Part shown: positions 39,877 through 52,609 of the stretch, in pieces
How positions within the stretch are numbered: position 1 is the first letter of the stretch
Layout: each line of letters begins with the position of its first letter
Assembly (NCBI GenBank): GCA_903856295.1
Contig: CAIOBP010000187.1
Coordinates: 1-53,006, forward strand
Length of the DNA stretch: 53,006 nt
Direction of reading: 5' to 3'
Source: an uncultured Rhodospirillales bacterium
GTDB lineage: Bacteria; Pseudomonadota; Alphaproteobacteria; Azospirillales; Azospirillaceae
Notes under the pieces: generated by a model
What the model saw: only the letters and a program-made list of their open reading frames with translations
Told to the model about the DNA's origin: nothing
Database searches by the model: none
Translations under genes and position numbers: made by a program

Positions 39877-39953
39877 CGGAGAGTAGCTCAGCCTGGTAGA
39901 GCACTGCTTTCGGGAGGCAGGGGTCGCAGGTTCGAATCCTGTCTCTCCGACCA
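39877..39953 (+). tRNA. tRNA-Pro (anticodon CGG)
   Basis: A 77-base cloverleaf with encoded CCA. The acceptor is CGGAGAG/CTCTCCG with discriminator A. The D arm is GCTC/GAGC, the anticodon stem CTGCT/GGCAG carries loop TTCGGGA (anticodon CGG, codon CCG), and the T arm is GCAGG-TTCGAAT-CCTGT. The C1-G72 pair is typical of bacterial tRNA-Pro. The low-GC island begins after it, with an integrase 205 bases downstream, so it is the likely integration site. Confidence 0.97.
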
Positions 39954-39990: not shown

Positions 39991-40135
39991 GCTGTCTGTG
40001 GATGCGTCCAAATGGGGTAGTGAAGGGCTAATGCAGTGCCCTGCCCAGCCCAAAGCCCCTCCAAAAATCCCAAAGGAATCGGGCCTCACTCTTTTGTTGA
40101 CCGTCCAAGGTAGTGCAACTTTAATGCAGGGGTTG

Positions 40136-40156
40136 GAGCACTGCTTTTTGGGGGCA
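40136..40156 (+). repeat. copy of the tRNA-Pro anticodon arm in front of the integrase
   Basis: Bases 40136-40156 match tRNA-Pro bases 39899-39919 at 18 of 21 positions, including 12 in a row (gagcactgcttt). The match covers the end of the D stem and the anticodon arm. It ends 2 bases before the integrase ATG at 40159. It could be an attachment-site relic or an integrase-binding site. Confidence 0.55.
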
Positions 40157-40158
40157 CA

Positions 40159-41414
40159 ATGGGTAATAAACCTTACCAACTATTTCAGCGAAAAGGTTCG
40201 TCGAAATGGTATTGCCGGTTTAGTATTCCGGAACAGGGGCAGTTTCAAAAATCCCTAAAAACAGAAGATGAAGCCGAGGCCGACAAACTTGCAATGTTGG
40301 CCTATATGCGGGCAACGGTTCGCGCCGAACAAGGGCAGTCAATTCGGGAGAGAACTTTCGCCGATGTTGCGGAAGAGTTTATAGCCAAGATCGAGAAAGA
40401 TGTTGCGAACAAGGAAAAGAAAGATATTTTGCTTCACGTTGATGTTCCAACCATAAAAAGATATTTTATTGAATTTTTCAAAAACAAGCCTATCGATGCG
40501 ATAAAAGAAAAAGATATCGCTGCATATATAGAGTGGCGTAAATCATATTGGGTTTCCGGTCCCGGAAAAGATATTAAGACGATAACTTACAAGCGTGCCG
40601 GCAGGATTGTATCGCGGCCAACGCCAAAAGATCGTCAGAACACATCATACAGCCGAATTCGTCGCGAAATTGTGCTACTTAAGCAGATTTTAAGGCAGGC
40701 CGTTAATTGGGGATTTTTACCAGCACAACTTATGCCGGAGATAAAACTTGACCGCCAAAAGATAGCCCAAGGCCGGGGTTCACTTTGGAAGAGTTCAAAA
40801 GGCTTCACAAAATGGCTGAAGACAAGGTTGGCGACGCAAAGGTATTTTCACATTTATGGCGTGATCGCGTTAAGTTAATGGCGTTCATTACAATTGCAGG
40901 ATATTCCGGATTAAGACCTGGAGAAATTTTCAATTTAAATTTTGGCGATATTATTGGGCTTGAAAAAGCAAGAGCGGAACATTGGAAAAATCACGACATA
41001 AGGATAAGAGTAAGGGGGAAAACAGGAGGCAGAACGATTGTTGCAAAAGTTAATGTTGTCGCCCCACTTAGAATGCTCGGTGAATTATGGTTTAACGATT
41101 TCGACAGAGAACCGGAAGATATGGACCCCGTATTTTTTAATGATGATGGCAGTAGAATGAAGTCCATAAAGAAGGGCGTCGGCAGTTTACTAAAAGCCGC
41201 TGGATTAGAAAAAGATCATACAGGAGCACGAAGGACAGCATATTCGTTTCGACATTTTTATATCACGATGCAGTTAATTCACGGAGTTGACATATATTTG
41301 GTCGCAAAAAATGCCGGAACAAGTTCGGATATGATCCACAGATTTTACGGACATGCCGAGATAGAAAAAATGGCAGATGAATTACGCCCCGAGTGGGATC
41401 ATCCTATGGCGTAA
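40159..41414 (+). pseudogene. tyrosine recombinase/phage integrase, frameshifted
   Basis: Site-specific tyrosine integrase split in two frames. The first frame (from ATG 40159) gives the arm-binding and SAM-like core-binding domains (FADVAEEFIAKIEKDVANKE, SRIRREIVLLKQILRQAVNW). The second (through 41414) gives the catalytic domain, with Arg in GYSGLRPGEI, the SFRHFY box, and the Tyr in DMIHRFYGH. Adding one base in the G run at about 40775-40778 joins them as GRGFTLEEFKRLH, a natural continuation. This could be an inactivating slip, an assembly error in a homopolymer, or rarely a recoding event. Position beside tRNA-Pro marks it as the island's integrase. Confidence 0.85.
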
Positions 41415-41537: not shown

Positions 41538-42227
41538 TTATAATGCGGCAGATTGTGCAATGTCTCGAACGCTGGCATAGCCCGAACGCTTGACGATGTT
41601 TAATACGCTGCTTCCGTTCCATGCACCGCCGCGACGTGTTGCAACGCCACGGTTATTAAGAGCGTCGGCGATTTTGTGCACGCTGTAAACACCACAGCGA
41701 ACAACGTCTCGGATCGCCGGTAAAACGTTGGATGCGTGGGTATCGGCTTGGGCGATTAAAGTCCGCCGTGCCTTCGCTTGTGCATCTGCGAGATTTTTTC
41801 GATTTCCGAGGAGAACTCCGCGAGCACGGGCGGCTTGCAATGCTGCCTTTGTGCGTTCGCTAATCATTTTTGCCTCGTGCTCTGCAAACACTGCGACAAT
41901 CTGTAGCATCATCCGATCTGCTTGTGGCATATCACAGGCGGCAAATTCTGCCCCGCTATCCAAAAGTGCCGAGACGAACGCGACGTTGCGGGCAAGCCGG
42001 TCGAGTTTGGCGATCACGATTGTGCTCTTTGTTTTGCGCGCCAACGCGATCGCTTTTTTTAATTCCGGTCGATCACAATTTCGTCCGCTCTCTATCTCTA
42101 TGAACTGTCCAACGAGTTCGTGGCCGGCTGTATGGGCTTGCACCGCTGAAATTTGTGCTTCTAATCCCAATCCACTACGGCCCTGTCTTAAAGTTGAAAC
42201 TCGGATATACGAGACATAACGGGACAT
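41538..42227 (-). CDS. serine recombinase (resolvase/invertase family)
   Basis: Recombinase of 229 residues. The resolvase catalytic domain starts SRYVSYIRVSTLRQGRSGLG, with nucleophile Ser10 in RVST. Catalytic arginines and the dimer helix are in IAKLDRLARN and ISERTKAALQAARARG. The C-terminus holds a DNA-binding helix-turn-helix (KIADALNNRGVATRRGGAW). The ATG at 42227 has GGAGG 5 bases upstream, which decides it over a GTG at 42239. It is divergent from the 652-residue gene; the 180-base gap between them should hold promoters for both and possibly its own crossover sites. Confidence 0.92.
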   Translation of the reverse strand: MSRYVSYIRVSTLRQGRSGLGLEAQISAVQAHTAGHELVGQFIEIESGRNCDRPELKKAIALARKTKSTIVIAKLDRLARNVAFVSALLDSGAEFAACDMPQADRMMLQIVAVFAEHEAKMISERTKAALQAARARGVLLGNRKNLADAQAKARRTLIAQADTHASNVLPAIRDVVRCGVYSVHKIADALNNRGVATRRGGAWNGSSVLNIVKRSGYASVRDIAQSAAL

Positions 42228-42407
42228 TTCGGCCTCCACTATATGTAGATGTGCCGATTATACGACCGTCGGAGAAATTGATCATCCGAAGAGTGGTGCT
42301 GGCGTTGAAAATGTGGATGGCATCGGCCTTGCATTACTCTGCGGGCATTAACGGCAACAAGCACTTTGTTCCTACCAATCGCAATCGAACCTACGGGAGT
42401 AATTAAA

Positions 42408-44366
42408 ATGTCTGCTATCTCTCTCCGTGCTGCCGCTCTGTCCATGTCTTCACTCGTGGACACCACTTATACCACCACTACCGGCATCGGTGGCGTGGTG
42501 GCCGCTAACCTTAACACCCGGACGACTTCGTTTGGCCGGTCGGGAGGCTTTTCGGCTCCGGCGAAGGGTGGCAAGGGTGAAACATTTGGCGAGCAAAGAT
42601 TTACCGGCCATGGTGGTGGCGGTGGATCGGATGGCGGCGACGATGGCGGCGACGGTGGGGACGCCGTAGAGTTCGTCCTGCAACAACGTATCCGGCTGTT
42701 CGACATCCTCGGCGACATCGATAATCGGAAGGATACAGTTAAACTCTCCCGCAAGGAAATCGACGAACTAACCGTGCAGGGCCTCGAAGTCTGCTTCGTC
42801 ACGACCGAGCGTGCGCGGGTCGATAAAGCCGTGCTTGCCGAACTAATCGCGACTTATCCGAAGCGGGTTAGCGAGACCTCTATTAACAACCCTGCGATCC
42901 TCGTCGTGCATGGTGAGTTTAACGTGTCCGCTGCGCAACTCTCGATCTACGCAAATATTCTACAACGTGCACACGATGGTATCGACGGCACTGGCCGGGC
43001 GATGACGACGGACGAACTTGGGGCGGCACTCCGGAAAACGTTGATGGGATTTTACCGGAAACATTGCTTGAAGAGCGACGGGACGGCAAAAAGCAAGGCT
43101 GCACAAAACGAGCCCTTCACGCTTGATGGACCGTTCCGGACGACCGCGTTTGATGGTCTTGATGGTATTTTCATTGTTAGGCTCGCTGTTAATAATGGTA
43201 TCGCCGAAGCGCAAAAGTTTAACCTTGAAACACCCGTCGTAGAACCGGCGTGGGCTGAATATGAAGAGACGGAAGCGGACGATGCTAATTCGCCGCCAGC
43301 AGCAACATCGCCACCCTCGACCGTACACGCCACTACGCCACCCGCTGCCCTCGATCACGACGTCATCGTTCGGCAGGAACTTGCGGCCATCATTCGTGCC
43401 GGCACTGCACAGAATTACAATGCGATGGCAAAGGCGTTAAACGCGGCAGGCATTACGACCGCTCGCGACAAAGCATGGTATGCCGGCACGCTGAAGAACG
43501 CCCTCGACCGTTGGGGCTACGGCAGCGTGGCGGAATTCGTCGCTGCTCACGCTGACGATACCGTCGTTGCGACCGTTCCGAACGGTGATGATGACGATCC
43601 GGAGGGCGGTCCGGACGACGGTGGAAACGGGGGTGGGCAGCCCGCACCGACCAACGACGGAACCGTGATGACACCGTTCGCTGGAGGTTTTGGGCTGTGG
43701 GGCTATGGCGAGGTAAAAATGCCCGACACGATCCGATATCAAGAAAATTCCGTTATCGATCCCAACCTTATACCGTCCAAAAATATTTACCTCGAAGCGG
43801 TGGCCGAGCCTTGGGATGTAAACATAACGCTGGAAGGCGATACGGTTGTTTCGCTTGTCGATGTCATGATGACGGCGTACAGAAAACGCTATGTCGGAAC
43901 GCGGCGTAAGATTGATAATTCGAGTGCTCGGAACGGAATGAAGACATATTTTGACCTCTATGTTAAACCGGACGGAGCGGAAATTCGGATCGGCGTTCTT
44001 GGTGGTGATCCGCTGCTTGTCCAAGAAGTAGAAGGTTTTTCGACGACCGGAGCGGATTACAGAACGAGCCGCCGCGTGATCGAGATCGATGCCTTCGAAC
44101 TTGCGGAAACGTTCGCAACAATAACGGCTAACAGCGAGACGCTCGGATTTTATGCTAACGGGCTGAAAAATATCAAGGAAGCGATGAAAACGCCTGTTGA
44201 CGTTGTGCTTCGAGGTTCGATGGAGGGGTTGCAATTGGTCGCTGGAAATCGGCAAGTTGCATATCTCGGAAACGAGCGGATGAACGTTGTTAAAAACCGA
44301 GACGGCCAGCCCGCTGCGAAAATTCGGGTGCGGAAGGCTACAGGACGGAAACCGAAAGGCGATTGA
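42408..44366 (+). CDS. 652-aa unknown multidomain protein with a recombinase-like HTH segment
   Basis: I recognise no full-length family. Layout: a Thr/Ser-rich start; a Gly/Asp linker (about 68-86); a globular domain (about 87-275); a Pro/Thr linker; a segment at about 335-380; a second Asp/Gly linker (about 393-420); and a C-terminal alpha/beta domain (about 435-652) with a basic tail (RVRKATGRKPKGD). The middle segment reads ALNAAGITTARDKAW...GYGSV and resembles ALNNRGVATRRGGAW...GYASV in the divergent serine recombinase. I infer a DNA-binding helix-turn-helix. It starts at ATG 42408 and ends 2 bases before the transglycosylase-like gene, so the two are probably partners. GC is higher than in the genes that follow. 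Confidence 0.75.
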   Translation: MSAISLRAAALSMSSLVDTTYTTTTGIGGVVAANLNTRTTSFGRSGGFSAPAKGGKGETFGEQRFTGHGGGGGSDGGDDGGDGGDAVEFVLQQRIRLFDILGDIDNRKDTVKLSRKEIDELTVQGLEVCFVTTERARVDKAVLAELIATYPKRVSETSINNPAILVVHGEFNVSAAQLSIYANILQRAHDGIDGTGRAMTTDELGAALRKTLMGFYRKHCLKSDGTAKSKAAQNEPFTLDGPFRTTAFDGLDGIFIVRLAVNNGIAEAQKFNLETPVVEPAWAEYEETEADDANSPPAATSPPSTVHATTPPAALDHDVIVRQELAAIIRAGTAQNYNAMAKALNAAGITTARDKAWYAGTLKNALDRWGYGSVAEFVAAHADDTVVATVPNGDDDDPEGGPDDGGNGGGQPAPTNDGTVMTPFAGGFGLWGYGEVKMPDTIRYQENSVIDPNLIPSKNIYLEAVAEPWDVNITLEGDTVVSLVDVMMTAYRKRYVGTRRKIDNSSARNGMKTYFDLYVKPDGAEIRIGVLGGDPLLVQEVEGFSTTGADYRTSRRVIEIDAFELAETFATITANSETLGFYANGLKNIKEAMKTPVDVVLRGSMEGLQLVAGNRQVAYLGNERMNVVKNRDGQPAAKIRVRKATGRKPKGD

Positions 44367-44368
44367 CG

Positions 44369-45904
44369 ATGATCGATTATGGCGCGCTGCACGAAAAGCA
44401 TTGGGCGCAACTTATCCCAGCAGTATCGCCGTCGTATAACACAGCGTGGGTAAAAGCCTCGAACTCGGACCGACCGCTACGGAACAATATAATACAAGAT
44501 GACCTTAATTTCCTTAAGCGGTCGAGCCCATTATTTTACCTCGACAAAGTTTTGTATAGTGCTGGTTTAGCAGCAGGTAAAAAAGACTATGACCTTGTAA
44601 AAGATAAGGCGGGGCACGACGCGGAATTAACCGGCGATAGTGGTGGCTATCAAGCGGCAACGGGAACCCTTAAATGGGCAATGCGCGAGTGGCTTGAAAA
44701 CTTACTCCCGTTCACAGAAGAATATTGTGATTTTTGTCCAATTGCGGATTTACCGACTTCGGCTATCGCTAACAATCCCGACGATGATGATGATGATGAT
44801 GACGGCGAGGAGGCGAAGCCCGCCCGCAAACCGTTTAAAAATCATGTTGATCGTCTCATGATGAATAACGGATTTGATCCAACAATCGCGGAAAATCCAA
44901 ATGAAACTTTGCATACGCTAATCACCAAAAATAAACTTTCGCCGGAATTTAACACCTGTTTATGGTATACAAAATATAACACCGAATGGATATTGGCGAA
45001 TAAAAATCCAGATGCAAACACCAAGTGGCTTAATGTTATACAAGGTATTGGATTGGACGAAAGCGAGGCGTGGCTTAAAGAAATGATAAATTATCCGTTG
45101 GATGGAATGTGCTTCCCTGCGCAGCATCTTACACGAATGGAGCAAACGCTAAACGCCATATCAAGGCTTTGGGACGGCGGAATGCTTGGAAAATACAAAC
45201 GTTTGCATTTTCTTGGAACCGGACAAGCACAAAACTTTGTTGTATATTCCGAGGTTCTTAAGCAAATTCAAAAACATGTAAATCCGGATATATCCTGCAC
45301 AGGAGATGTATCATCAGCAGTTTACGAAACCAAACAAGGCAACATGGCTGTTGGATTTACGATAGGAAATGGCGAATGGGCTGTGCAGCGAATTCATGCA
45401 AGCAAGCCGGCGGCACTTAAGGAAGGCCAAAAAAAGGAGCCGTCCGAACTGGCTAATATGCCGCCGAATACCAATCTTGAAGAAGCATTATTACATCTTT
45501 GGAAAAAGCGATATTTTGGGGGAACGAGAGTAGCAAAAGGTTGGATCGAAACGGACAGTTTAGTTTACCGCAACGACGACCCGAGATTTTTTGTGAGAAC
45601 GGAGATTGCAAAGTTATTAACTGTTTCCGATATTTTCGATCTAAGTCGAGGCAAGCACGGAACGGATAATCTTGCATACCTTTATATGTATAACCATAAT
45701 CTACAAGTTTATGCACAAAGCGTTTATACAGCCCTGCAATATAGTGATGCCGCCCATCCAATGTTTACGAGCCCAACATTGGAAAAAGTAAAAATGGCGA
45801 TACGAAATGTTTTTGAAAGCCCGCCCGAAGATCGCCTTGATTATATTTTTGTTAACCGAAAAGAATTGAATATTCCGGACTGGATAAACGGAAAATCGAG
45901 GTGA
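44369..45904 (+). CDS. tRNA-guanine-transglycosylase-like protein (DpdA-type, 7-deazaguanine insertion candidate)
   Basis: Protein of 511 residues with the order of motifs of the TGT fold: GDSGGYQ (residues 89-95, base-binding Asp as in TGT DSGGFQ), ADLPTSA (compare DIPT in archaeal TGT), NVIQGIG (222-228, compare IVQGG), YPLDG, LHFLGTG (279-285), Asp313 in CTGDVSS at the nucleophile position, and a late HNLQVYAQS like TGT HNL-x-Y. The zinc cysteine set of tRNA TGTs is not seen. Known relatives (DpdA) exchange guanine in DNA for preQ0-type bases in phages and islands. RNA as substrate is not excluded. A poly-Asp loop lies at about 137-146. No preQ0 synthesis genes are nearby. The ATG at 44369 has AAAGG upstream. 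Confidence 0.78.
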   Translation: MIDYGALHEKHWAQLIPAVSPSYNTAWVKASNSDRPLRNNIIQDDLNFLKRSSPLFYLDKVLYSAGLAAGKKDYDLVKDKAGHDAELTGDSGGYQAATGTLKWAMREWLENLLPFTEEYCDFCPIADLPTSAIANNPDDDDDDDDGEEAKPARKPFKNHVDRLMMNNGFDPTIAENPNETLHTLITKNKLSPEFNTCLWYTKYNTEWILANKNPDANTKWLNVIQGIGLDESEAWLKEMINYPLDGMCFPAQHLTRMEQTLNAISRLWDGGMLGKYKRLHFLGTGQAQNFVVYSEVLKQIQKHVNPDISCTGDVSSAVYETKQGNMAVGFTIGNGEWAVQRIHASKPAALKEGQKKEPSELANMPPNTNLEEALLHLWKKRYFGGTRVAKGWIETDSLVYRNDDPRFFVRTEIAKLLTVSDIFDLSRGKHGTDNLAYLYMYNHNLQVYAQSVYTALQYSDAAHPMFTSPTLEKVKMAIRNVFESPPEDRLDYIFVNRKELNIPDWINGKSR

Positions 45905-46654: not shown

Positions 46655-47053
46655 ATGACAAAATTAAATACGAGAGAGATTTATGATATTGATGCGGCGA
46701 TGATATACGGATTTTTTAGTTATCTCTTCGAGCATGAAATGCGAGACGATGCAAACAATGAAATTGGCGTTGATGACGGATGTTTAACATACGACTTAAC
46801 ATATGAGATTATAAAAGTTCACGAGAACGTAGACGGAATTGTGTTTACCGCCGTGGTCGAAGATACCGTGTTCGACATTGAAGACAGGTCGTTGGGGTAT
46901 AAAGGTGGAACTTTGGTGGTATCGAAAGTTAGCGGAATATACAGCGGATACGTCTCGGGAATGTCATTATTAGACCAGCATCGAATTTTATGTAAGTTAA
47001 CCAACAGGTATGAACTCGAAGCGCAAGACCATTTTTATCGGGAAATTCATTAA
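46655..47053 (+). CDS. hypothetical island protein, 132 aa
   Basis: A protein of 132 residues, acidic at the start (MTKLNTREIYDIDAAMIYGF), with a beta-rich middle (GIVFTAVVEDTVFDIEDRSL, GGTLVVSKVSGIYSGYVSG) and a helical end (LLDQHRILCKLTNRYELEAQ). No signal peptide or membrane segment. AGAAAGG lies about 10 bases upstream. I recognise no family. It follows a strong terminator, so it has its own promoter or starts a new unit with 47121-48209. Confidence 0.65.
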   Translation: MTKLNTREIYDIDAAMIYGFFSYLFEHEMRDDANNEIGVDDGCLTYDLTYEIIKVHENVDGIVFTAVVEDTVFDIEDRSLGYKGGTLVVSKVSGIYSGYVSGMSLLDQHRILCKLTNRYELEAQDHFYREIH

Positions 47054-47120
47054 AGCGGATGCCGGCCAATTTGCAGTTGGCCGGCATCAATATTACATAA
47101 CACAGCAAAAGGATTATAAC

Positions 47121-48209
47121 ATGACACAATTACAAAAAGTAGATATAAATGACTTAATGCGGCGTATGAATATTAAACGGCACGAGCCCGAGTTAAAATT
47201 TGTCGGCGACATAAAAACTTCCCCTGTTGTATCGGAAAATGATAGTGTATTAGATGTATTTAATGCAAGCGGAGAACGGGCGGATTTGGAGCGGATCCAT
47301 ATTGGCTTAATTGGCTTAATTGAAGGAAATAAAGACAATAATGGATCCGCTGTAAATCCGCCCGAAGGCGGATATAACAACGGACCAATAAATGAAAGCA
47401 ATCGCTTGCTACGCCTTTCTTCTTCGAAGGCAATAAATGCAATCCAATACGAACCAAATCGACAAAATGCAATTACAAAAAGCAATCAAAAAGATTATGA
47501 TATGGCCGTATCGAGTGGCGTTTCGAGTGACGTTTCGGATGCGGCTAACGAACGCTTCGAACGCATTGAAAAAACGCTCGAAGACATCGGAGAAACGCTA
47601 AAGCACTTGATTGGTTTAACAAGTAGCACAAAGACAGCACCGGAAATAAATCACGCAGGTGGCGGATTAATAGATTTTACAATGCAGATACCGGACAAGA
47701 TAGTTATACAATATTTCAAGAACGCAAAATCAAAATCTCCACCAACTATCAAGTTGGAACTACGAGAAAGAGCGAGAGATGCAGGCGGCAAGATATATTA
47801 CAGAGATTATTGTGTTTTACACGGGAATTTAGCAGGTAGTTTCGGACGTGGCAAACTTGATAAATTAACCGCATTAAGCATTAACAAAGGAAACATGGAC
47901 GATATATGGACGCTGCGAAACTTTATAAACAACATTAGTGATGAGTATCGAGAACTTAAAAGTTATATGGGAGTGGTGTTTTATGACTACGAAACAAATG
48001 AATTATTCCCATACGCATACATGGTAATTGATAAGTCGGATGATTGGGCATTGCTGTATTTGCATAACGGTGAGCAATTCATATCGGAAGAAGTTAAGTT
48101 TATCGAGTCAAAATCGACAGGTAAGAAAAAAGGTGCGGACGGAATATTTACACTTAATAAAGACGTAATCGATTGCATTTTTAATTGCGAAGATAGCAAA
48201 AGCGAATGA
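47121..48209 (+). CDS. hypothetical island protein, 362 aa, with coiled coil
   Basis: A protein of 362 residues from ATG 47121. The N-terminal part is low in order and rich in Asn and Ser. A short coiled coil (RFERIEKTLEDIGETLKHLI, about 145-165) follows, then a C-terminal domain of about 180 residues (IPDKIVIQYFKNAKSKSPPT, KLDKLTALSINKGNMDDIWT, MGVVFYDYETNELFPYAYMV). No known motif recognised. The coiled coil suggests oligomerisation. A frame open from 47010 is not used because the ATG at 47121 has AAAGGA upstream. A hairpin terminator follows 18 bases after the stop. Confidence 0.7.
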   Translation: MTQLQKVDINDLMRRMNIKRHEPELKFVGDIKTSPVVSENDSVLDVFNASGERADLERIHIGLIGLIEGNKDNNGSAVNPPEGGYNNGPINESNRLLRLSSSKAINAIQYEPNRQNAITKSNQKDYDMAVSSGVSSDVSDAANERFERIEKTLEDIGETLKHLIGLTSSTKTAPEINHAGGGLIDFTMQIPDKIVIQYFKNAKSKSPPTIKLELRERARDAGGKIYYRDYCVLHGNLAGSFGRGKLDKLTALSINKGNMDDIWTLRNFINNISDEYRELKSYMGVVFYDYETNELFPYAYMVIDKSDDWALLYLHNGEQFISEEVKFIESKSTGKKKGADGIFTLNKDVIDCIFNCEDSKSE

Positions 48210-48502: not shown

Positions 48503-48901
48503 ATGAATCAAATATTGTATATTGTGTATTTCATGTTAGCAGATTGTGGAATTGTTAAATCATCAAATGATTTTTCTCGGAGATTATTGGGAAGAAGCAG
48601 CCGATATTATAGTTGGATACTTGCAACCAACCATAAACCGGCTATTGATGTGATGGTCGGCTTATTTGTTAGGCTTGAAGGTTTATGCAACGAGGCAAAA
48701 TCAATTGGTGATGAGGACAAAGAGTTATTGTTTGATGATTTGGCAACTAAACTTTGGGCTGAAATTCGGATTGAGAGCCTCGCAAAAAAGCCGGTATCTC
48801 GTAAAAAACATCGGCATGAAAATGATGCTGGTGACGGCGTGGACATGGTGGAGAACGGCAACGCTACCGTGCCCGCCCATGCTGAACCGTTCGGAGCATA
48901 G
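48503..48901 (+). CDS. DUF6626-like protein
   Basis: A protein of 132 residues. The N-terminal half (YIVYFMLADCGIVKSSNDF, then SRRLLGRSSRYYSWILATN) matches the DUF6626-type pattern: helix, a FSRxxLGRSxxYY core, helix. This resembles a small helix-turn-helix fold and is found on phages and islands of Alphaproteobacteria. The C-terminal half has a basic patch (KKPVSRKKHRH) and a disordered tail. The role is unknown; DNA binding is an inference from fold resemblance. The ATG at 48503 is used. Confidence 0.65.
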   Translation: MNQILYIVYFMLADCGIVKSSNDFSRRLLGRSSRYYSWILATNHKPAIDVMVGLFVRLEGLCNEAKSIGDEDKELLFDDLATKLWAEIRIESLAKKPVSRKKHRHENDAGDGVDMVENGNATVPAHAEPFGA

Positions 48902-49019: not shown

Positions 49020-49113
49020 CGCCATCATATTGAAATTACGCCATAATTATCTTGATCTGCCTTGGCGGCATTGTAGCATTGGCTTAGCACAAGAACTTAT
49101 TGGAGTAATCGAG

Positions 49114-49620
49114 ATGGGAGTTTTGCAAAGCCTTAAGTTCTCGGATATTAGCAAGAAGTCCGAGAATACCACGCCGGTAATGGTAATGCGGCGTAAAATG
49201 CTGGTGGCCTTGGATGAGCAAATCGAAGCCGCGACCAGCGAGGCAGCCGGACATCATTACATCCGCAGCGTCGAAAAGACGGTGAAGAACGCTGAAACGG
49301 GCGTAAGCGAGCGTCGAACCGTTGAACGAACGCTTCGTAAGATGTGGTGGAGGTCGGCGGAAGGCGTGATGCTGGAGTTGCGATTTGCGAACCGTGTGAT
49401 GACGGTCGGCGCCGGCAACAGCATTGTAATCGGACCGGCTGAAAATCTTGTTCCTGTGCTCGAACAGGTGAAGCAGGCCGTGAGCAACGGTGAACTCGAC
49501 GCTGCTATGCAGGCTGTTGCGGATAGTCGCAAGCGTGCTCGGAAGTCCGGCAAGCCTGTCGGTGATGCTGGTCTACCGGTTGCGACGGTGACGAAGGCCG
49601 CGACGAAGGCGGCGAAGTGA
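49114..49620 (+). CDS. DUF6641-like protein
   Basis: A protein of 168 residues that matches what I recall of DUF6641: MGVLQSLKFSDI at the start, then RRKMLVALDEQIEAATSEA, then ERTLRKMWWRSAEGVMLELR with the paired Trp, an AEGVMLELRFANRVM strand, and VPVLEQVKQAVSNGELDAAM. The end is Ala/Lys-rich. Such proteins occur on phages and integrative elements of Proteobacteria, with unknown function. GGAG lies 8 bases before the ATG at 49114. A terminator follows at once. Confidence 0.7.
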   Translation: MGVLQSLKFSDISKKSENTTPVMVMRRKMLVALDEQIEAATSEAAGHHYIRSVEKTVKNAETGVSERRTVERTLRKMWWRSAEGVMLELRFANRVMTVGAGNSIVIGPAENLVPVLEQVKQAVSNGELDAAMQAVADSRKRARKSGKPVGDAGLPVATVTKAATKAAK

Positions 49621-50209: not shown

Positions 50210-50417
50210 GCAAAATATTTCCATTTTATGCAACGCCCCACAATTAACAGCCCTTTTTGACAGCATAAAACGAACATGATTGTCAAAGGCTACGCATAAA
50301 CACTGATGCGGCATATTGGCCGAAAGACATATTTTTGCCCCATTTGCGAACCCGGCGCGCCGAAGCCTATTCCGGAAACTGACGGCCCAATATATAATCA
50401 TTGGCATCATATCGAGG

Positions 50418-50792
50418 GTGAAGACCAAGGCGACCATTCTTGTTATCGATGACGACAATTTTATGCGTAAAGCCATTCGGCTTATGATCGAGGAACACGG
50501 CCACAGCGTTATTGAAGCCGAAACTGGACTAAAAGGTGAGCAAGCACTTGAGTTTTCAAATGTTGATATTATTTTCACTGATATCTTTATGCCGGAGCAA
50601 GATGGAATTCAAACCATCATCAACATAAAGAAAATTATGCCCGATATTCCAATTGTGGCTATTACATCTGCTCACTCCGAAAGCATGACATGCCACCTAA
50701 AGCAAGCGAAACTTCTTGGGGCATCGATAGCATATAGCAAGCCCATTACAGCCGAGAATATTCATCACGCATTATTCACGCTTCTATCATAA
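50418..50792 (+). CDS. single-domain response regulator (CheY-like receiver)
   Basis: A receiver domain of 124 residues. The acid pocket is ILVIDDDNFM, the phospho-acceptor Asp is in IIFTDIFMPEQDG, the switch Thr/Ser is in VAITSAH, and the conserved Lys is in AYSKPI. There is no output domain. The start is taken as a GTG at 50418 because the domain begins there; its ribosome site is poor. AT-rich codon use separates it from the host CheY at 32197-32562. It lies 37 bases before the DUF1465-like gene and may be co-transcribed. Its partner kinase is not in view. Confidence 0.85.
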   Translation: MKTKATILVIDDDNFMRKAIRLMIEEHGHSVIEAETGLKGEQALEFSNVDIIFTDIFMPEQDGIQTIINIKKIMPDIPIVAITSAHSESMTCHLKQAKLLGASIAYSKPITAENIHHALFTLLS

Positions 50793-50829
50793 GAACTAAG
50801 GGCTATCATTTGAAGTGCTGGGGTGCCAA

Positions 50830-51258
50830 ATGACTGCTATTAGTTTTATTTCTTTATTAGACCCAATATACGATGAGGCAATAGCACTTGCGCTCAATTC
50901 AAAAGAATATTTTTCATATTATGACAATATGGATAAAGATTTCTTATCATATATGACACGAATGCAAATGATTGATGAGATGAGAATTTTGACCATCCGG
51001 CTTACTGAAATAGTTTCGTGGGCGTTTGCCATAAGAGCACTCCACAACAATGAAATTGATGCTGAAGAAATTGACAAAAAATACAGAATTTCTAAGGACG
51101 AATATCTGCTACAGCCTTATGCAAAACAAATTCCGCTTCCAAAAGAGATGATTGAACTATTGACAAAAAGCCACGCTCTCTATGTTAGAACGTCGAGGAT
51201 AATTGATGATACCGTTAAGCATTTACAATTTAAAGATCGCTGCTACGGAATAACATAG
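50830..51258 (+). CDS. DUF1465 family protein
   Basis: A helical protein of 142 residues that matches the alphaproteobacterial DUF1465 pattern: FISLLDPIYDEAIALAL, MIDEMRILTIRLTEIVSWAF followed by AIRALHNNEIDAEE, and LPKEMIELLTKSHALYVRTS. The function of the family is not established. The gene is AT-rich, unlike usual chromosomal copies in high-GC hosts, which suggests transfer or a second copy on the island. The ATG at 50830 is used. Its neighbours are a response regulator and an HD-GYP gene. Confidence 0.75.
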   Translation: MTAISFISLLDPIYDEAIALALNSKEYFSYYDNMDKDFLSYMTRMQMIDEMRILTIRLTEIVSWAFAIRALHNNEIDAEEIDKKYRISKDEYLLQPYAKQIPLPKEMIELLTKSHALYVRTSRIIDDTVKHLQFKDRCYGIT

Positions 51259-51352
51259 CGCGCTTAAAACATTCGTTAATGTGTAGGCATAAAGTTTTTT
51301 TAAAAATTTTGTTAGATATATTTCGTCAAAAACAATGCACGCCACCATATCA

Positions 51353-52609
51353 TCAATAGTAAACATTAAGTATCCTATTTGCCTCATTAACAACCTCGTC
51401 ATCATTTCGATTTGAATAGTTATCAAATAGCATCCTCGCAATGTCTATAAACTTATCCACCAAATCAGCATCAAAATGACCGCCTTTTGCTGAAATTAAA
51501 TAAATCATTGTATCTTCAAACGACTTCCCTTTTTTATACGGCCTTTCACTTGTTATAGCATCAAAAACATCAACTATCGCAAACATCCTCGCAATTATTG
51601 GAATTTCGTCACCGGATATTTTGTGCGGGTATCCCTTACCATCATATCGCTCATGGTGATACTTGATAATATCTATGCCGCTTTCAACCCAATCAGAATT
51701 CACCATAATTTTTTCACCGAGAGAAACATGGCCTTTAATAACTTCAAATTCTTCGTTCGTTAATTTTCCGGGCTTCTGCAAAACAGCATCCGGTATTCCA
51801 ATTTTGCCAATATCATGCAACAACGCGCCACTAATAAGTTCGTTCATTTGATGCTCTTGTAGCCGCATAATTTCTCCAAAATAATATGAATAAATCATAA
51901 CTCGCAAATTGTGATGAAATGTATCATTATCCCTTAATGCAATTGTATTGCCCAACAATAAAAGCGTTTTAACATTAGCCTTAACCAAAGTTCTACTAAC
52001 TTTTACCGAAACATAATATTGGACAAAAGATACTAAAATTGCAATAAGCGAGGTTATCCCGACCACAACAATTGTGTTGTCAATGAAATCAGAAATTACT
52101 TTGTCCGAAACGTGAAGAAAGCCGTATAAATTATAATGTGTATGCCCATTAACAACCGCTGATTTTGAACAAAAGTAATTGCTTTTACCGTATGAGATGA
52201 TTGGCAATAAAGAAACAGAACACTCGATTGCAGATCGTTTGGAGAAAATATTTTTATCATAATCACTCAATTCAGTTTCAACAATCCGCTGATCAAACTC
52301 GTCAGTCAGCAAAATATATACAAAATTTGCGTCGCTTGATGGAGCGGCTTTCTTATATGAAATATAATCATAAACAGTTTCTAAAATCACCGCATTTTGA
52401 GAAGCGGGCGTTATCTTCGAAAAGATGCGCTGACCAAACTCACTAACTTGCCGATCTACTATTCTATCATATCTTGCTTTCGAAAATTTATATGATACAA
52501 CTAACGCAATCGGCATGATCAATATTGATGAAACTATTGCAACAACAATTGCGCGATACATAAATTTGATGCGCGCTTTCGACATGCTTATACCCTGCGA
52601 TCCCGACAC
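51353..52609 (-). CDS. membrane-bound HD-GYP cyclic-di-GMP phosphodiesterase
   Basis: A protein of 418 residues. A first membrane helix (AIVVAIVSSILIMPIALVV) and a second (VVVGITSLIAILVSFVQY, about 185-205) flank a periplasmic sensor region. The C-terminal HD-GYP domain has LLHDIGKIGIPD, IIKYHHERYDGKGYP and FDAITSERPYKKG, all intact, so c-di-GMP hydrolysis is likely. The GTG at 52609 has GGAGG 6 bases upstream, which makes it a better start than the ATG at 52585. It lies 26 bases after a truncated gene, and both were probably one operon before the IS inserted. Confidence 0.92.
   Translation of the reverse strand: MSGSQGISMSKARIKFMYRAIVVAIVSSILIMPIALVVSYKFSKARYDRIVDRQVSEFGQRIFSKITPASQNAVILETVYDYISYKKAAPSSDANFVYILLTDEFDQRIVETELSDYDKNIFSKRSAIECSVSLLPIISYGKSNYFCSKSAVVNGHTHYNLYGFLHVSDKVISDFIDNTIVVVGITSLIAILVSFVQYYVSVKVSRTLVKANVKTLLLLGNTIALRDNDTFHHNLRVMIYSYYFGEIMRLQEHQMNELISGALLHDIGKIGIPDAVLQKPGKLTNEEFEVIKGHVSLGEKIMVNSDWVESGIDIIKYHHERYDGKGYPHKISGDEIPIIARMFAIVDVFDAITSERPYKKGKSFEDTMIYLISAKGGHFDADLVDKFIDIARMLFDNYSNRNDDEVVNEANRILNVYY

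Follow-up and report, generated by a model that had tools for sequence, protein, structure and literature searches.

To our knowledge, how DNA transglycosylases find and modify much double-stranded DNA is an open question, and the related tRNA-guanine transglycosylases (TGTs) act on RNA loops. The bacterial Dpd genomic island, which Thiaville is said to have described in 2016, reportedly combines DpdA with DpdB, DpdC and others. Phages that carry dpdA alone are already known, and in E. coli given only the dpdA of phage 9g, dPreQ0 appeared in plasmid DNA, according to PMC6884629. Here we analyze a two-gene module on a mobile island in contig CAIOBP010000187.1 of an uncultured Rhodospirillales bacterium (assembly GCA_903856295.1, positions 1 to 53,006); this whole stretch of 53,006 nucleotides is called the window below. 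The module encodes p652, a protein of 652 amino acids (aa), and, 2 bases after its stop codon, a 511-aa TGT-fold enzyme related to DpdA. As a whole it is best explained, we believe with somewhat better than even confidence, as a DNA-guanine transglycosylase together with a tether. A more specific proposal, which we hold tentatively and at a little short of even confidence, is that base exchange is coupled to sliding clamps at the replication fork, phages using their own clamp and alphaproteobacterial islands a dedicated clamp-family partner and the host pool of preQ0 and preQ1. What is new is the connection with replication clamps, for which phages and islands each give separate signs; among the matches listed from open-licence PubMed Central, we recognized none in which DpdA or another 7-deazaguanine transglycosylase is joined with a sliding clamp.

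The locus shares with the Dpd island a DpdA-type enzyme on a mobile element and differs from it in its partner, which belongs to another family; PADLOC gave no dpd match among the nine window proteins scanned (two had chance-level matches to other systems), on an island that is cut by the contig end. An earlier reading made from the letters alone (the sequence-only reading) had placed the two open reading frames (ORFs) at 42408-44366 and 44369-45904, and had recognized in the second the TGT motif series and the loss of the zinc cysteines, all of which our analysis bears out. The features of the enzyme, in window coordinates, are as follows.

44369-45904, + strand: TGT-fold, DpdA-like enzyme, 511 aa from its ATG (AlphaFold model, family alignment A2)
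44636-44653, + strand: DSGGYQ, residues 90-95 (D, S, G, G and Q identical in 53/53 rows of A2; position 94 is F or Y)
44747-44761, + strand: DLPTS, residues 127-131 (D127 and P129 in 53/53)
45035-45046, + strand: VIQG, residues 223-226 (Q225 in 53/53)
45209-45223, + strand: FLGTG, residues 281-285 (G283 in 53/53)
45305-45307, + strand: D313, in the position of the TGT nucleophile (53/53)

Elsewhere in A2, N444 is invariant (53/53) and H443 is kept in 51/53 rows, so that, judged from the alignment, the motif series is far beyond chance. Active-site roles are assigned to D90 and D313 by analogy, D313 presumably being the nucleophile as in TGT. The zinc motif CxCxxC occurs in 0/53 aligned relatives and is present, as CVCPAC, in the canonical TGT of the host (contig C229). 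The AlphaFold model of the enzyme (predicted local distance difference test score, pLDDT, 84.4; predicted template modeling score, pTM, 0.88) has the TGT barrel, as the sequence-only reading had anticipated: all of the 50 best Foldseek matches in the PDB are TGTs, and VIA Z scores to TGTs run from 18 to 20 across the best 50 rows (19.8 for the archaeosine TGT 1iq8, 19.0 for 2ash, and 18.6 for the Z. mobilis TGT). In BFVD the model matches, among others, a protein of Vibrio phage nt-1 (464 aa, E 1.1e-9), the same length as the nt-1 protein that we read as DpdA2. That protein, VPFG_00171, appears from its motifs and its place beside FolE to be the nt-1 DpdA2 of PMC6884629. It resembles the window enzyme in having DSGG and no CxCxxC, and it matches the A2 profile (hhalign E 2.4e-5, probability 76%). 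It differs in escaping detection by the five-sequence A1 hidden Markov model (HMM) and in lying beside FolE and other preQ0-type genes, none of which is seen in the visible part of the island; its tail is unlike the end of the nt-1 polymerase. The most fitting name for the window enzyme is a TGT-superfamily protein of DpdA type, a probable relative of DpdA2 rather than an established DpdA2.

The enzyme is divergent, since no curated family matches it: Pfam, NCBIfam and PADLOC returned no family at E<=1, PF01702 (tRNA TGT) included, and PHROG only two chance-level rows (E 0.11 and 0.14). PDB sequence searches with the enzyme and its family recovered no TGT, and the single protein used as query recovered no relatives from genome or viral contigs. 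These were found by the profile of alignment A1 (the window enzyme and four tblastn relatives), which located 34 genome-contig loci and, in a set of 599 viral stretches, 513 relatives, 80 of these being retained; A2 comprises 53 rows selected from 120 matches. The family is large and mostly unnamed. One of its members is EST35_0316 of Pseudomonas phage PA5oct, which has a gene annotated as 7-carboxy-7-deazaguanine synthase nearby; a jumbo-phage deazaguanine system of PA5oct is named in PMC7824862.

The enzyme and its partner form a real, conserved arrangement. A partner gene is present at 41 of the 42 distinct bacterial loci that carry the enzyme, and the single locus that lacks one (L019) stops at a contig edge. 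These 42 loci are 33 of the 34 genome-contig loci (the phage-like L027 being set aside), the Azospirillum B510 plasmid, the window, six host-family loci and one other genome of the class; L144, L145 and L146 repeat L008, L032 and L004 and were counted once. At 39 loci the partner belongs to cluster c27, c92, c20 or c122 and was found by BLAST or HMM, and at the window and at L151, from the same-genus genome G003, it was found solely by profile-to-sequence comparison. The partner adjoins the enzyme, upstream, downstream or divergently, L011 being the exception with its partner two genes distant. The partner clusters are joined to each other by hhalign (probability 97.9% for c27 and c92, 94.8% for c27 and c20, 93.1% for c20 and c122, and 87.8% for c92 and c20); the partner alignment A4 holds 29 sequences, with L004, L011, L034 and L035 excluded and the C-terminal extensions of L006, L010, L012 and L013 trimmed. 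Partner type tracks the enzyme tree, changing eight times where the minimum possible is seven and the shuffled mean 36.4 (this tree used 25 of the 84 phage-type loci; L181, L145 and L146 were excluded, and both L008 and L144, which are identical, stayed in). Such clustering favors a durable association of the two genes, though shared descent alone also clusters labels. Across the 84 phage-type loci described below we found no partner gene.

The partner family is fast-evolving, and what it may do is suggested by its one modeled member, L036:8106-9830. Its AlphaFold model (pLDDT 83.4, pTM 0.63) combines a helical N-terminal part with a predicted sliding-clamp fold at residues 280-560, the relative placement of the two halves being uncertain because the overall pTM is modest. 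Foldseek matched 475 chains at E<=0.001, the best being PCNA (E 1.6e-7) and the best 50 all clamps, and the VIA match (Z 15.5) spans 231 residues, the best 50 rows being filled by a viral processivity subunit and by PCNA, 9-1-1 and beta clamps. The C-terminal half of L036 thus has the predicted fold of PCNA and the DNA polymerase III beta clamps (Z of about 15), and differs from them in its extra helical N-terminal domain, its fast divergence and its lack of a sequence match to solved structures; PDB sequence searches with the partners found no clamp.

The partner at the window is p652, the parts of which are these.

42408-44366, + strand: p652, 652 aa, first gene of the two-gene module, a partner-family member by its N-terminal domain
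42768-43055, + strand: p652 residues 121-216, helical domain common to the partner family (hhalign score 34.8 against the merged profile)
43389-43529, + strand: p652 residues 328-374, resolvase-like helix-turn-helix (HTH), by resolvase similarity (PF07508 E 0.095, below the cut-off)
43770-44327, + strand: p652 residues 455-640, C-terminal region, located where relatives have the clamp domain (by position only, alignment A3)

The score of p652 with the merged partner profile is 34.8 (E 0.00094, probability only 22%), compared with 21.7 for the best of 300 unrelated proteins of the same loci (a random draw from 458), 16.8 for the best of 25 shuffles, and 42.7 for the same-genus partner at L151. 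A smaller partner profile gives 31.5 for p652, 19.6 for the best of 60 shuffles and 22.9 for p652 reversed; with the single cluster c20 the score (26.7) is barely above the shuffled maximum (25.7). On the strength of these scores and its position, p652 can be placed in the partner family, homology being supported for the N-terminal domain only. Pfam, NCBIfam, PADLOC and PHROGs gave chance-level rows only for p652, apart from the resolvase-like stretch, which is 36% identical over 47 aa to the C-terminal HTH of the neighboring resolvase (BLASTP E 2e-5) and may be a DNA-targeting insert. The sequence-only reading had called the partner unrecognized, which holds for the family libraries but not at the level of profiles, where the N-terminal domain places p652 in a family with a clamp fold in its modeled member.

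The p652 sequence invites another explanation, in which the partner is a DNA-binding adaptor other than a clamp that directs the enzyme to sites through the resolvase-like HTH and whose C-terminus has some other fold. This would fit both the resemblance to the neighboring resolvase and the absence of any clamp signal in the C-terminal region of p652, where two sequence tests were negative (a clamp domain there had looked plausible by eye, and the claim was dropped), and it would fit the failure to find direct relatives. Nonetheless, p652 occupies the same place beside the same enzyme as the other partners, and a clamp fold is predicted in the modeled member of the family to which its N-terminal domain links it. 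We regard the adaptor as unlikely, though still a contender, and by analogy with L036 a clamp in p652 is an expectation only.

A separate indication of a clamp connection comes from the phage branch of the enzyme family, for which we compiled 84 phage-type loci: 80 viral contigs, three named phages and L027, a contig of a metagenome-assembled genome with phage gene content. Names of neighbor families were assigned from scanned cluster representatives, and the neighbor counts are lower bounds because many viral contigs are short. In 71/84 loci the enzyme has a DNA polymerase cluster nearby, and c2, a family of about 245 aa corresponding to PHROG 12062, is found in 76/84, ending at most 1.6 kilobases (kb) upstream of the enzyme in 72 of these 76. 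The order polymerase, c2, enzyme within 2.5 kb is seen in 64 of the 71 loci that hold all three. FolE (43/84), QueE (35/84) and c3, which is glycosyltransferase-like on weak Pfam rows only (59/84), also occur near the phage enzyme.

Many phage enzymes also share a C-terminal motif with the neighboring polymerase. An F..LF-type motif lies within the last 14 residues of 68 of the 77 polymerase ORFs of at least 300 aa, and we built a matrix from 34 different polymerase tails alone, and asked for a match above the 99th percentile of shuffled enzymes that falls in the last 75 residues, among the 65 phage enzymes (of 84) left after removal of near-identical tails. The polymerase-type motif passes in 33/65 phage enzymes and in 0/268 control proteins from eight other neighborhood clusters, and the best matrix match falls in the last 75 residues in 45/65, against 14% of shuffled sequences. 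A stricter clamp-motif pattern is found in 53/84 phage enzymes and 1/35 bacterial ones, whereas a loose pattern is unspecific because it also occurs in 17/35 bacterial enzymes (shuffled mean 6.1, maximum 14). In PA5oct, where we found no island partner gene, c2 instead lies upstream of the enzyme and the enzyme has the polymerase-type tail motif; the motif is absent from the window enzyme. In phage T4, the polymerase gp43, gp55 and gp33 bind the clamp gp45 through highly similar, interchangeable C-termini, as described in PMC2988020. In the phage members a similar motif is found on a base-exchange enzyme, and in 31/33 its start lies 34-46 residues from the C-terminus, not at the very end as in T4. 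By analogy, the motif is likely a clamp-binding peptide, through which these enzymes probably attach to the clamp of the phage.

Several results weigh against coupling to a clamp, and we set them out together. On the phage side, 32/65 enzymes fall below the tail-motif threshold, and L002, L040 and L041, which among phage members are closest to the window enzyme, have no c2 gene and are not among the enzymes that pass the tail test, though their tails end in or near LF. The identity of c2 as a clamp is weak: one of three scanned proteins matched PHROG 223 (DNA polymerase processivity factor, E 0.0016), the merged partner profile gave hhalign probabilities of 39-60% (56-60%, at an E of about 1e-4, for the clamp-domain profile), single partner clusters gave no link, gp45 (the clamp of nt-1) did not match, and searching the PDB by sequence recovered no clamp. 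The best PDB row for c2, a fimbrial subunit (E 4.8e-5 over 50 residues), was judged a chance match, with no stretch passing on its own. On the partner side, c122 is tied to c27 and c92 only through c20, the direct comparisons not being significant (1.3% and 1.0%); the partners L011, L034, L035 and L181 are short (247-375 aa) and seem to be without the clamp part; and the N-terminal domain occurs in seven of 385 class-sample genomes and one Azospirillum-group genome that have no match to the enzyme, which makes it a wider module rather than one specific to this system. Scores of p652 against single clusters stay below the shuffled maximum for c27 (19.6 against 22.3), c92 (19.1 against 23.6) and c122 (14.3 against 23.6), and its hhalign probabilities in the partner family are 10-22%. 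Beyond the short resolvase-like stretch, p652 is a BLAST orphan: tblastn in phages and plasmids and the viral-contig scan gave no match, and the eight of 194 relative genomes with rows at E<=0.01 represent its own copy and weak local matches. The expectation of the sequence-only reading that the gene pair would be conserved thus holds for the partner family, but not for p652 as a BLAST-level family. Lastly, the enzyme family is uncommon (9/82 host-family genomes and 2/385 class-sample genomes, the own genome counted in both), the window enzyme is a long branch (2.46) of unsure placement on the enzyme tree, and the integrase of the island, described below, is split, so that decay is possible.

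The enzyme is best read as acting on DNA because its phage relatives adjoin DNA polymerase, a clamp-like gene, FolE and QueE. A competing explanation is that it is a tRNA-modifying TGT paralog that exchanges bases in tRNA rather than in DNA. The closest solved structures are indeed tRNA enzymes, and the island is located at a tRNA gene. tRNA genes are common integration sites, however, and so are silent on the substrate; moreover, the zinc motif is missing from all 53 aligned members, the phage members sit in a replication module, and many share the tail motif of the polymerase. We consider a tRNA substrate quite improbable. A protein-modifying role like that of CBASS Cap10, an idea prompted by the abstract of PMC11996544, was set aside, no CBASS family being present among the scanned proteins.

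As to base supply, the host genome encodes QueC and a canonical TGT, next to which lies QueA, so a host pool of preQ0 and preQ1 is likely. The sequence-only reading had seen neither preQ0 genes nor a DpdB-like partner, and we recognized none either in the visible part of the island; its suggestion that borrowing the host 7-deazaguanine pool would be new does not stand, given the result with phage 9g dpdA cited above, and use of this pool by a lone DpdA is not itself new. At seven bacterial loci (L010, L011, L016, L017, L020, L022 and L026) a c3 gene and a small membrane protein, c42, lie near the enzyme, and one scanned c42 member resembles Vut_1/YhhQ-type transporters (PF02592 E 2.2e-5, just below the cut-off); these neighbors fit a 7-deazaguanine substrate. 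In the five roseobacter-group loci L016, L017, L020, L022 and L026, c42, c3, the enzyme and the partner form a fixed block with genes assigned by eye as response-regulator-like and histidine-kinase-like. Between 39700 and 53006 no preQ1 riboswitch was found at threshold.

The island carrying the module has the following further features.

39877-39953, + strand: tRNA-Pro (CGG), insertion site of the island (ARAGORN, Rfam RF00005, GC drop here)
40159-41414, + strand: tyrosine integrase, divided between overlapping ORFs at 40159-40878 and 40785-41414 that lie in different frames (PF00589, cluster c14)
41538-42239, - strand: serine resolvase, divergent from the two-gene module (PF00239 E 3.3e-28, PF07508 E 4.1e-5)
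48503-48901, + strand: DUF6626 protein, a cargo gene (PF20331 E 1.2e-8; cluster c47, at six loci including the window)
49030-49620, + strand: 196-aa ORF, a second cargo gene (cluster c26, at 11 loci including the window)

At the tRNA-Pro gene the fraction of G and C (GC) falls from about 0.66-0.70 to about 0.42-0.44, and the low-GC DNA extends from there to the contig end at 53006, which, with the integrase, agrees with the tRNA island proposed in the sequence-only reading. The right end of the island and any further genes therefore lie outside the view, and the statement that preQ0 genes are missing is valid for the visible part only; within the window we found no second attachment site or second copy of the tRNA end. 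A stretch just 5' of the integrase (40131-40152) resembles, by eye, the anticodon region of tRNA-Pro and is possibly part of an attachment site. Both integrase ORFs belong to cluster c14, present at 19 loci, and the second matches PF00589 at E 2e-6. The two cargo genes are common to other islands of the same kind. Two other ORFs, 47010-48209 (399 aa) and 46655-47053 (132 aa), have chance-level rows only in four family libraries. The region 50316-52609, of very low GC (about 0.35), may be a separate insertion; its ORFs include one with an HD domain (PF13487), one resembling DUF1465/RcdA and one that by eye is response-regulator-like. In the islands L006, L010, L012, L013, L015, L034 and L035 we noted a c41 protein (320-465 aa) with an HxH motif, suggestive by eye of a rolling-circle Rep, a candidate that was rejected after Pfam gave no match for the one scanned (L013). 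A glycosyltransferase-like extension seen by eye on the c20 partners L006, L010, L012 and L013 was likewise not supported by Pfam in the one member scanned.

An integrase in two overlapping ORFs and an enzyme on a long branch would be compatible with a decayed remnant, an island whose gene pair no longer works. Both ORFs of the module are nevertheless open and tightly spaced, and every invariant residue of the enzyme is kept; we consider a non-working pair very improbable.

The mobile setting also bears on a possible role in interference, in which a clamp-like partner would act as a decoy for phage replisome parts and the enzyme would mark or damage invading phage DNA, the island being a defence or satellite element. 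In keeping with this, the enzyme family is common to large phages, the islands carry integrases and vary in cargo, and one relative of the N-terminal domain (L178:4642-6774, a stand-alone helical domain of 286 aa, next to a DUF6641-like protein) has as its neighbor an AAA ATPase of 212 aa (PF00004 E 2.3e-7) that weakly matches a clamp-loader lid (PF22608 E 0.049). PADLOC, however, recognized neither the enzyme nor p652, and for ten relatives and neighbors its sole row was a weak one to PtuA (E 0.032); we judge interference improbable. Restriction-type genes were noted by eye near L178:4642-6774. A search for a clamp-loader gene beside the enzyme, made with one AAA query, matched only the query itself. 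In six further alphaproteobacterial loci (L173, L174, L175, L176, L177 and L180), in genomes with no match to the enzyme, the helical domain, which has no name as yet, is part of proteins whose other part looks PAS-like (only L174 was scanned; PF07310 E 0.01, below the cut-off).

The tail motif in 33/65 phage enzymes and the clamp fold of a relative of the partner together suggest base exchange tethered to a sliding clamp. Under this proposal, the zinc-less DpdA-type enzyme would exchange guanine in DNA for a 7-deazaguanine, preQ0 or preQ1, drawn from the queuosine pathway of the host, and p652, as a fast-evolving member of the partner family, would contact the enzyme, serve as a clamp and hold it on DNA, most likely DNA under replication. 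In the phage branch, the enzyme would dock on the phage's own clamp through its polymerase-type tail peptide; in the island branch, where this peptide is missing, a clamp-family partner would travel with the enzyme instead. With its added resolvase-like HTH, p652 may direct the complex to sites on the island itself.

If this is right, the clamp link would give a simple answer to how these enzymes reach so much double-stranded DNA, namely that freshly copied DNA is modified and base modification is tied to DNA copying, and it predicts a contact between peptide and clamp in many phages. The module would then be a compact system of two genes dependent solely on the base pool of its host, and functions would be suggested for a large unnamed enzyme family, for the partner family and for PHROG 12062.

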